NCBI GenBank assembly: GCA_015659035.1
Contig: DQNS01000004.1
Location: 36,440-100,439 of the forward strand
Reading direction: 5' to 3'
From: Acidobacteriota bacterium
GTDB taxonomy: Bacteria > Acidobacteriota > Vicinamibacteria > Vicinamibacterales > UBA8438
Length of the DNA: 64,000 bases
In this document: positions 26,595 through 51,500 of the stretch, piece by piece
How positions within the stretch are numbered: the first letter of the stretch is position 1
Layout: every line of letters starts with the position of its first letter
Notes under the pieces: generated by a model
What the model was told of the DNA's origin: nothing
What the model saw: the letters and a program-made list of their open reading frames with translations, nothing else
Databases searched by the model: none
Translations under genes and position numbers: made by a program

Positions 26595-26597
26595 ATG

Positions 26598-26752
26598 GTC
26601 CGCGCAAGAATAGGTTCCCGTTGTGGGGCGTCGAGACGTCCGGCTGACAAGGCGCGAGGAGGGAGCACACGGGCAGTATTCGACCGACGAGCAACGCCGC
26701 CAGACGGGATGCATCGGCGGCCGAAAATGGGAAGTTATTCTTGCGTGGGCCA
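26598..26752 (+). repeat. Palindromic element, copy A
   Basis: This 155-bp element begins with GGTCCGCGCAAGAATA and ends with TATTCTTGCGTGGGCC, which form a 23-base terminal stem with G-T wobbles and one mismatch. Core boxes GGCGCGAGGAG, GACGAGCAACGCCG and GGGATGCATCGGCG lie inside. It differs from copy B (30914) at 11 of 155 positions by hand alignment. It starts three bases after a stop codon and reads through in frame into the next gene, which can mislead start prediction. Confidence 0.85.
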
Positions 26753-48223: not shown

Positions 48224-48838
48224 ATGGCCACGGAGCGTGTCGCGCGATTCGTCGTGCTCATCTGTCTGCTCGCGCCGGCGGGCGCCGGCGCCCAGTCCTC
48301 GGCACCCGTCGAGCTGATCGTGCGGGTCTTCGACGAGCTCGACGAAATCACGGCGCACTGCCAGATAGCGGTCTACACGGCTGACACGCGCGACGCGCCC
48401 CTCGTGCCCGACCTGCGCCCCGGCACGGGGCATCACGTCGAGGTCGAGCCCGGGCTGTACGACCTGCAGGTCACGTGGCGCAGGCCTGGCGACACCGTGG
48501 CGATCGAGTGGGCCGAGCACCTGTCAGTGTTGTGGTACCCCGACGAAGGGGGGCACCACGTCGAGATCGTCAATCTGCAGCCGGTCTTCGGAGCCCTGCT
48601 GGTGCGGCCGCCAGTCGCTTGGCTCGAGACCGACCGTGACTGGCATGTCAGCGCGTTTCTGCATGGTGGCGTGGGACGCGCCGGCTTTGAGCCGGTTGAC
48701 GGCACGGACTACAAGCTGTTCATCCTCCCGGCCGGTCGCTACGACCTTGTCGCTGGGCTCGGCTCGACAGAGCTCACGGTGACCGATGTCGAGGTGCCGG
48801 CCCAGCGCACCCGACTGAAGCTGTTGGAAATGCAATAA
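48224..48838 (+). CDS. Secreted protein of unknown function
   Basis: The 204-residue protein has a signal peptide (FVVLICLLAPAGAGAQ) and a beta-rich body (ELIVRVFDELDEITAHCQIAV, GLYDLQVTWRRPGD, HHVEIVNLQPVFGALLVRPP, GTDYKLFILPAGRYDLVAG). The strands and GRYDL/GLYDL repeats look like two tandem small beta-sandwich domains of the CarboxypepD_reg or CNA-B kind. I do not know a function. The stop is followed after 62 bases by palindromic copy E. Confidence 0.7.
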   Translation: MATERVARFVVLICLLAPAGAGAQSSAPVELIVRVFDELDEITAHCQIAVYTADTRDAPLVPDLRPGTGHHVEVEPGLYDLQVTWRRPGDTVAIEWAEHLSVLWYPDEGGHHVEIVNLQPVFGALLVRPPVAWLETDRDWHVSAFLHGGVGRAGFEPVDGTDYKLFILPAGRYDLVAGLGSTELTVTDVEVPAQRTRLKLLEMQ

Positions 48839-48900
48839 GGATCGGGCGCCGGAAACGAGCAAGTCCCTGGCGCCCAGAACGCTGGCGGGTGCTCCAGTTA

Positions 48901-49057
48901 GGACCCGGGCGGGAATGACTATGCCATTCTGGTCGCCGATACATCCCGCCCGGCTGCGTTGCTCGTTGCTTACATACTCCCGGACGCGCGCTCCTCGCGC
49001 CTTACCGAACGGGCGCCTCGACGCCAGAAGTTGGCATACTTATTCCCGCCCGGGTCC
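48901..49057 (-). repeat. Palindromic element, copy E
   Basis: Its arms GGACCCGGGCGGGAAT (left) and ATTCCCGCCCGGGTCC (right) are perfect inverse complements. TATGCCA and TGGCATA continue the stem further inwards. On the minus strand the core reads GGCGCGAGGAG, ACGAGCAACGC and GGGATGTATCGGCG, the same boxes as copies A to C. The right end abuts the stop codon of the next minus-strand gene. Its length is 157 bp. Confidence 0.85.
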
Positions 49058-51274
49058 TTACCTGGCCAATGGGTCGGGGCGGATCTGGAAGTGCACGATC
49101 TTGCTCTTGGTGCCCTTGCCACCTTCGGTGTGCCAGACGTAGTTCGACCCGTAGTTGGCCCAGAGCCCGCGGCCCCTCCAGCCGGCATCCGGATCGTCGA
49201 TGCGCCCATCGAGCCCACGCGAGTAGAACGCCATCGGGTACGGCACGCGCAGGACGACCCACTCGCCGGTCTCCGGATCCAGCGCGAGCAGCGAGTCCGA
49301 CGTCGAGCCGTCCGCGATCGGGATGTTCGCGCCGAGCCCTAGGGTGTTGTACTGGTCGACCCAGCTGTAGTAGTGAAAGTCGGCGCTGCCCGGCGTCTCG
49401 ACGCCCTTCATCTGCGGGCCGGGCACCGGATAGAGCGTCCAGCCTTCGGGGCAGTGCTGGCCGGTCGCCTCGGGACCGTTCGTGACGGCGCATTTCGTCC
49501 GGTCGAAGCTCGCCATGTGGCTGCTGCCGGAGAGCGCCGCCCAGATGACGCCGTTTCGGTCGACATCGATGCCGCGCGGCGCGCTGCCGGTCTTCATCGG
49601 GTCGACGTTGGGATTCTCGATCGACGGCGGTTCGTAGACCTCGGCGATGCAGGTCTCGGGCGGGTTGTCCCCGCGGTCGAGCCGGACCAACCGGCCGGGG
49701 AACGGCCCGGTGCGGGTGATCCAGACCGAATCATCGGTCGGGCTCGCGATGATGCCGTAGCCGAACCCGGCGATCCGTGTATCGAGCGCCGGGTCATTCT
49801 CCTCGGCCCGCGGCTCGTTCCATGGCTTGGAGATCTTGCCGTCGCCGTTGGTGTCGATGACGGTCGGACACCATCCCTGCGAGAAACGCTCGTCGCCGGT
49901 CTCGTCGTAGACCTTGGTGTCGAGCCAGCCGATGGTGTTGCCGTCACCGCTGAACCAGAGGGTGTTGTTCGCGTCCTCGCCGAACTGGAGATGATGGGTC
50001 CCGAAGCAGGTGTCGATCAACACGAACCGTTCGGTCTCCGGGTCGTAGTAGGACGCCTGCCGACCGCTTCTCGACAGCGGGAAGAACTCCGCGTAGTCGT
50101 TGTCCGAGCCTTCCTGGCACCAGTCCGCGTTCGCACGGGCGCGGACAGTCGACGTCATCCAGACGCGACCCTTCTGGTCCATCATCGGGTTATGGGGATC
50201 GGCCGAGTTCTCGTGCCCATCGGGTCCGCCGCGCCCCCAGAGCAGCTGATCGCCCCAGTAGTACGACGGCTGGAGTTGCGTCTGCGGGAAGCGCGACGGG
50301 ACGTTGTCGGGATCGTCCAGCCGCACCGGGATCGTCAACTCGACGGCGCTGTTCGCGATCGGGTCGACCACTGTCAGGCTGCCGTGTCCCGCCGACACAC
50401 CGTAGACCGGCCCGCCGCCGTTGATCGTCGGGTTGCGCTTGTCGGTCGCGATCTCGTCGTGGATGAACGACGAGTCCGTTCCCCAGTCCCACAGCGTAAC
50501 GACCAGGTTCCGCTCGACGCCGCTCGGCCGGGGCGGGCGCGGCGGGGTCTCGCCCGCCGCGATCCGGTCGGTCCAGTCGGCGAACATCTCGAGCGCGCGC
50601 TGCCGGCCGAACCGGTTCATCGCGCCGCTCATCGAGTTGCCGCGCTGGCCGGTCTGGACCCGATGGTCCCACGCCGCGACGGTCGAGTCGAAGTCGTCGA
50701 GGTGCTGCACGACGCGCGTCGCCGTGTTGCCAAGCTGATGGCAGAGCTGACACCCCTGCTTCATGATGTCGACCCACGCCCCCTGGCTCTGGAGGTTCTC
50801 CGCAATACCGTTGCCGTCGGGACCGGTGCCGGGGAACTCATGTGCCGGCGGTGGCTCGATCAGCGAGTACCAGTAGTTGCCGGGGTAGTATTGCGCTGCA
50901 GCTTGCTCGTTCGGCGCCACGACGCCGGTGAGCGTCACGTCCTCCCGGCCCGGGGACAGCTGGACCTTCGCCGAGTCGACCAGCCCATAGCCGCGGACCC
51001 AGACATCGTAGGTCGCCTCGGGCAGTTGGGGCAGCACGAAGCGACCACGATCGTCGGTGACCACGATCTTGGCGAACTTGGTCTCCAGCTCGTTGGTTTC
51101 CGCAATCACCCAGACACCGGCCTCCGGGCCGTTGTCACTGGTGACGGTGCCGGCGAGGACGCCGTCAGCCACACCGCCCTGGCGGGCCAACGCCGTCGCG
51201 CTCCAGGCGGCCACGCCGACCACCAGCAGCAGAACCGGCATGAACACTACACACGGGCGAAATCCGGTGCGCAT
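49058..51274 (-). CDS. Exported propeller protein with regulatory-like domain and one haem site
   Basis: This 738-residue secreted protein (signal VVFMPVLLLVVGVAAWSATA) opens with a carboxypeptidase-regulatory-like sandwich (VLAGTVTSDNGPEAGVWVIAE, FVLPQLPEATYDVWVRGYG). A haem site CQLCH follows (about residue 180). The remainder is a Vgb/SMP-30-like beta-propeller, with ADPHNPMMDQKGRVWMTSTVR, FGYGIIASPTDDSVWITRTG and PRGIDVDRNGVIWAALSG blades. The order is unusual and suggests a redox-active lyase or sensor; activity unknown. GGGAGG precedes the ATG at 51274. Copy E of the palindrome abuts its stop. Confidence 0.8.
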   Translation of the reverse strand: MRTGFRPCVVFMPVLLLVVGVAAWSATALARQGGVADGVLAGTVTSDNGPEAGVWVIAETNELETKFAKIVVTDDRGRFVLPQLPEATYDVWVRGYGLVDSAKVQLSPGREDVTLTGVVAPNEQAAAQYYPGNYWYSLIEPPPAHEFPGTGPDGNGIAENLQSQGAWVDIMKQGCQLCHQLGNTATRVVQHLDDFDSTVAAWDHRVQTGQRGNSMSGAMNRFGRQRALEMFADWTDRIAAGETPPRPPRPSGVERNLVVTLWDWGTDSSFIHDEIATDKRNPTINGGGPVYGVSAGHGSLTVVDPIANSAVELTIPVRLDDPDNVPSRFPQTQLQPSYYWGDQLLWGRGGPDGHENSADPHNPMMDQKGRVWMTSTVRARANADWCQEGSDNDYAEFFPLSRSGRQASYYDPETERFVLIDTCFGTHHLQFGEDANNTLWFSGDGNTIGWLDTKVYDETGDERFSQGWCPTVIDTNGDGKISKPWNEPRAEENDPALDTRIAGFGYGIIASPTDDSVWITRTGPFPGRLVRLDRGDNPPETCIAEVYEPPSIENPNVDPMKTGSAPRGIDVDRNGVIWAALSGSSHMASFDRTKCAVTNGPEATGQHCPEGWTLYPVPGPQMKGVETPGSADFHYYSWVDQYNTLGLGANIPIADGSTSDSLLALDPETGEWVVLRVPYPMAFYSRGLDGRIDDPDAGWRGRGLWANYGSNYVWHTEGGKGTKSKIVHFQIRPDPLAR

Positions 51275-51500
51275 CTCTGTTGTCCTCCCGCCGCACCCGA
51301 GCATCCACGAGAATGGATGCGGCTTCCGTCCACACTGTACCCGAGCGTCGTGGAGTGGTCAACGCCGCCAGGGCTCCTCAGCGGGTAGGTCTTGGCGTGA
51401 GAGGCTCGGCTTCGGTATGATTCAAGGCTTGTCTGCGCGGCAGTGCCCTCCTTATTCGCGGCACAGCGTGTGTTCCGGCCCCGAGGCCCACAAGAACTAG

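Follow-up and report, generated by a model that had tools for sequence, protein, structure and literature searches.

A 157-bp palindrome, copy E, lies between two convergent genes in the window that we analyzed (the whole stretch of 64,000 nucleotides of an Acidobacteriota genome). The question raised by this locus is whether the palindrome serves the genes beside it, as a bidirectional transcription end or an mRNA stabilizer, both proposed by the first-pass annotation, or whether it is of another nature. The features at the locus, in window coordinates, are as follows.

48901 to 49057, minus strand: copy E, a putative mobile element of 157 bp; family member by BLAST and covariance model, with an empty site in the related genome G305
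49042 to 49057, minus strand: left terminal inverted repeat of copy E, GGACCCGGGCGGGAAT, by direct reading; within a 30-nt arm of 90% complementarity
48901 to 48916, minus strand: right terminal inverted repeat of copy E, ATTCCCGCCCGGGTCC, by direct reading
49058 to 49060, minus strand: left TAA of the target duplication (3 bp), serving also as stop codon of the 748-aa gene, from the sequence, the gene, and the G305 empty site
48898 to 48900, minus strand: right TAA of the 3-bp target duplication, from the sequence and the G305 empty site
48947 to 49011, minus strand: conserved core hairpin (AAGGCGCGAGGAG ... AACGAGCAACGC) common to several phyla, from pattern scan, alignment, and covariation
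49058 to 51304, minus strand: insertion-target gene, 748 aa, with a CarboxypepD_reg-like N-terminal part (under the Pfam cutoff)
48224 to 48838, plus strand: convergent gene of 204 aa without a Pfam match; its G305 counterpart is 86% identical
48844 to 48875, no strand assigned: host hairpin GGGCGCC...GGCGCCC between the convergent genes, kept in element-free relatives

The position of copy E is as the first-pass annotation had described it. The element directly follows the stop of the minus-strand gene, with the TAA at 49058 to 49060 adjoining its 5′ edge (minus strand), and it lies between convergent genes, 62 bp from the stop of the plus-strand gene that ends at 48838. The 16-bp perfect stem is there as well. 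Read in plus-strand letters, GGACCCGGGCGGGAAT (48901 to 48916) is the exact reverse complement of ATTCCCGCCCGGGTCC (49042 to 49057), and arm pairing reaches 30 nt at 90% (48897 to 48926 with 49032 to 49061). The predicted fold of the minus strand has a free energy of −101 kcal/mol (z = −9.6), and none of 200 shuffles was equally stable. The plus strand folds more weakly, at −88 kcal/mol (z = −7.8).

Copy E is a member of a repeat family. At least 40 dispersed copies of the 157-bp element, mostly 150 to 172 bp long, were found in its own genome (3.18 Mb in 150 contigs), where the end sequences of just two subfamilies gave 117 matches versus 3 for a reversed control. When this genome was searched with copy E, the self-match (E = 1.6e-77) was accompanied by a closest copy, on contig C19, with 90% identity along its entire length. 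The arms that had been called new are indeed of the GGACCCGGGCGGGAAT type, but they are a subfamily trait and not unique to copy E. We aligned 42 near-complete copies from this genome and built from them covariance model R1, which gives copy E, itself in the training set, 154.5 bits. Common to the copies are the ends AGGGTCCG...CGGGCCCT and an internal core; the arms vary by subfamily and remain complementary. The window holds further members.

26596 to 26752, plus strand: full element copy, R1 166.8 bits
30913 to 31069, plus strand: full element copy, R1 170.4 bits
28087 to 28250, plus strand: diverged copy with rearranged arms, R1 80.4 bits
13777 to 13945, minus strand: degenerate copy, R1 27.7 bits (E = 1.1e-4), nhmmer 2.7e-14

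Two copies (L010, 2039 to 2265, and L038, 2001 to 2227) have some 70 bp extra at core position 99/100. None of 45 copies in the genome lay inside a gene predicted by our codon-bias script.

The arrival of copy E at a stop codon can be read from G305, a genome of the same genus, which keeps both convergent genes in synteny, at 82% and 86% identity, and lacks the element. The G305 site is GGCCAGA-TAG-CTGGAGCA, compared to GGCCAGG-TAA-[157 bp]-TAA-CTGGAGCA in the window, so that, single-base changes aside, the junctions differ only by the element and a second copy of the 3-bp stop codon. With an empty site in G305 and a filled one here, we conclude that the element transposed into the stop codon and duplicated that codon. 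This was the one clean empty site obtained. For the copies at 26596, 28087, and 30913, the relatives point to absence, with intergenic DNA too diverged for a clean junction. Across the copies of the genome, exact 3-bp duplications beside GGG...CCC numbered 13 versus 4.8 expected and included TTA/TTA, TCA/TCA, and TAT/TAT pairs. These pairs favor a three-base target, mostly TNA, in this genome. A stop codon abutted 16 of the 31 copies with clear neighbors, compared to 11.8 expected for uniform insertion over the TNA triplets of the intergenic region as reconstructed without the element (P = 0.03). Stop-codon abutment is thus mostly an insertion-site effect, arising from a TNA target together with selection against gene disruption, and the preference for stop codons beyond that target is weak.

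Taken together, we believe that copy E is very probably a non-autonomous, MITE-like mobile element of a multicopy family with a folded core, and that any influence it has on neighboring mRNA is a by-product of insertion, not the work of a dedicated terminator. Save for an autonomous partner, it is a MITE by the working definition of the term. A DDE-type transposase encoded elsewhere would have cut and pasted the element into a TNA target. Here that target would have been the stop codon TAA, which left the gene intact, and any change in the mRNA of the neighbor would have come with the insertion. Insertion at a stop codon is a way to sit beside a gene with the gene unbroken.

The proposed bidirectional terminator is not favored; that the element was selected by the host to end transcription between convergent genes is highly improbable. 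The stem is strong and GC rich, it lies between convergent genes, and so do 9 copies in the genome. However, a scan of copy E for intrinsic terminators (a GC stem and then a U-tract) found no U-tract after the stem, and its sole terminator-like match was an internal 5-pair stem. Folding is also strongly one-sided, with one strand well folded, and many copies lie between same-direction genes or, in 7 cases, between divergent genes, which have no need of a terminator between them. Furthermore, element-free relatives already have a conserved hairpin between these two genes. This host hairpin (48844 to 48875), GGGCGCCGGAAACGAGCAAGTCCCTGGCGCCC, is conserved in four element-free relatives. Judged by sequence, it is a better terminator candidate than copy E and is likely the real transcription end.

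The 748-aa protein itself belongs to an expanded family, with 8 matches in the genome and up to 18 in relatives. In another genus (L242, G084), a homolog of its gene has a core-like sequence right behind the stop, in the opposite orientation.

We examined the fold of the core hairpin. In 63 diverse cores, 88.8% of cells were paired versus 69.0% in shuffles, and the covariation score was 0.486 versus 0.145 in shuffles and at most 0.119 with the partner slid. This covariation comes from the outer and apical stems, both outside the search pattern; the invariance of the middle helix is largely the search pattern itself, which also includes the GA loops of that helix. Among 2×2 internal loops, GA/GA was the commonest, with 67 occurrences in 32 non-redundant single-hairpin elements. 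The more stable fold belonged to the forward strand in 31 of the 32 cross-phylum elements (by a mean of 12.5 kcal/mol) and in 37 of 39 copies of the own genome, a bias that stems in part from shared ancestry. Two-hairpin elements of Thiodiazotropha had no forward-strand advantage, an outcome to be expected of two opposed hairpins. A conserved core with covariation and a strand preference implies that selection has probably acted on a folded single strand.

The structured strand is also unevenly oriented with respect to genes. In same-direction gene pairs it was the sense strand in 20 cases versus 4 in the own genome and in 33 versus 14 elsewhere, together 53 sense versus 18 antisense insertions downstream of genes (pooled P = 4e-5). 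Stop codons stood at the left end (sense) in 35 versus the right end (antisense) in 14 (P = 0.004). The strand bias and the sense excess suggest a role as RNA or as single-stranded DNA. On the strength of the same counts, the element might be kept as a 3′-UTR hairpin that protects or destabilizes the upstream mRNA, for which ERIC in Yersinia sets an orientation-dependent precedent (PMC2229807). We consider this possible, if somewhat doubtful. Insertion polymorphism and patchy presence look selfish, and the orientation bias, while compatible with a 3′-UTR role, fits an insertion bias too and could reflect how insertion works or only the removal of harmful orientations by selection. An mRNA stabilizer, or some other 3′-UTR role, has mild support in that the well-folded strand is the sense strand of the gene before it, both at copy E and in most same-direction pairs; the abutment on a stop codon is mainly the insertion-site effect. 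For a mobile element, the core would be kept since it folds, either as 3′-UTR RNA or as single-stranded DNA during transposition.

Matches to the core were not confined to one phylum. We scanned 257 Gb for the exact core pattern GCGCGAGGAG-N{14,40}-GACGAGCAACGC, which has 22 fixed bases and an estimated expectation of about 0.8 chance matches, and found it in at least 117 stretches. The hosts were Acidobacteria, alpha-, beta-, gamma-, delta-, and zeta-proteobacteria, Verrucomicrobia, Planctomycetota, Actinobacteria, and Omnitrophota. The core model detects the family patchily: 61 of the 297 Acidobacteriota genomes contain it, as do 51 of the 274 from the Thiodiazotropha class. Most cross-phylum elements with placeable ends have inverted-repeat ends and are TA-flanked, in a CTAG-like context. 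In “Candidatus Thiodiazotropha endolucinida,” element ends gave 192 matches and the control none. All 20 copies fetched from Thiodiazotropha had TA flanks, reading YTA/TAR, and most had two inverted hairpins.

Some of the Thiodiazotropha copies (L164 to L183) have a 27-bp hairpin module (GCGCACCCCAAGGGCACTTCCTTCGGG) at several equivalent positions where others lack it, as if it were self-moving. One acidobacterial element (G087, L208) has ends, GGGCCTGTTAACACT, that are those found in the gammaproteobacterial Thiodiazotropha, by horizontal transfer or assembly contamination.

Plasmid and phage collections gave few or no element matches and no annotated partner. Rfam returned no match in the window at the gathering threshold; for five element-bearing loci at E values up to 5, it returned 4 weak matches, all under the gathering score. 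In the literature searched, to which subscription papers mostly did not belong, there was no report of a cross-phylum family with this core, and a search by the core letters led only to unrelated subjects, as judged by title. The element thus apparently belongs to a widespread, phylum-spanning, and undescribed family.

Which transposase moves these elements was approached through their ends, their flanks, and the protein families of their hosts. No autonomous partner with identical ends was among the matches listed for the own genome and Thiodiazotropha. The own genome had no match to the ISAzo13 transposase (PF07592), a profile also silent in controls, and a search for RAYT (PF01797) found none in three element carriers, namely, the own genome (89% complete), G005, and G006. 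One partial match to the IS630 type (PF13358) in the own genome was without flanking element ends or core, and the IS5 type (PF13586) was found in 2 of 5 other hosts searched.

RAYT (Y1) transposases act on single-stranded hairpins, and elements moved by them as REP/BIME-like repeats would account for a single-strand hairpin with conserved unpaired motifs and for the BIME-like pair of inverted hairpins in each Thiodiazotropha element; TIR-flanked RAYT families are known (PMC3733652). With PF01797 absent from the three carrier genomes, and with target duplications and symmetric ends that better match a staggered DDE cut, we judge this origin very unlikely. IS630-family elements duplicate TA, and IS630 itself prefers CTAG (PMC2170065); the YTA/TAR flanks of Thiodiazotropha correspond to this CTAG/TA target. 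In addition, a genome of the same order as the own genome (G123) has an IS630-type element with TA-flanked ends, GTGTCCCGTCCCAGTAGA, that resemble those of several cross-phylum elements, e.g., AGTGTCCTGTCCCGGAAGT in L055. An IS630-like mobilizer is therefore plausible for the TA-flanked members. It may be that the element is an IS630/Tc1-mariner-derived MITE throughout, with the apparent 3-bp duplication being TA plus a variable end base, and we regard this as conceivable without favoring it. The TTA, TCA, and TAT pairs of the own genome are not given by a TA-only duplication, and the matches listed hold no transposase with identical ends. One mobilizer does not account for everything, as the own genome has a 3-bp duplication, whereas that of Thiodiazotropha reads as 2 bp (TA).

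MITEs are commonly viewed as host-restricted remnants of a single insertion sequence whose interior is not conserved. In this family it is the interior that is conserved, and it is so across phyla. If it is true that a protein recognizes the core or that the core steers mRNA fate, the success of such elements would have an explanation open to testing.

Several known repeats resemble the element in part. REP/BIME sequences are likewise high-copy intergenic palindromes, and hairpin pairs occur in some hosts. However, REP units measure 20 to 40 bp, whereas the element measures 157 bp and makes target duplications. We rejected an identity with REP/BIME on its size and on the lack of a PF01797 match in the own genome. 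Correia/NEMIS repeats are host-restricted, and we know of no cross-phylum core for them. Compared by description, they are like the element in size, TIRs, and TA flanks: these repeats of Neisseria are 100 to 160 bp long, with long TIRs and TA flanks, and their transcripts are long hairpins (PMC2229807). RUP of Streptococcus pneumoniae is short, with a TIR and a TA-containing target, and was proposed to be mobilized in trans by IS630-Spn1 (PMC2229807). Unlike for the element here, the partner IS of RUP is known, and no conserved structured core is reported for RUP.

The closest comparison in layout is with ERIC (IRU) of the Enterobacteriaceae, a TA-flanked, imperfect, intergenic palindrome of about 127 bp with an orientation-dependent effect on mRNA (PMC2229807). 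By eye, ERIC shares with the core the layout CAAG...GAGTGA / TGAGCGA...CAACGC with GA/GA loops. Core model R2 matched 8 ERIC loci weakly (best E = 0.054), with several in the same register. In contrast to the core, ERIC has another central stem and is missing the GGCG/CGCC step. Given the weak match, we do not assign the element to ERIC, and kinship is only a lead. A wider proposal is that of a single ancient, gene-less mobile superfamily across phyla, whose conserved cargo would be a strand-specific, GA/GA-stacked hairpin (as RNA or single-stranded DNA), carried by transposon ends that differ or have diverged, with TA or TNA as targets, and frequently placed at stops, and of which ERIC would be a derived enterobacterial branch. 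We offer it tentatively and think it rather unlikely. ERIC is widely used for typing, yet it is unexplained, and a core that is recognized by a protein or steers mRNA would, if real, give it a possible origin.
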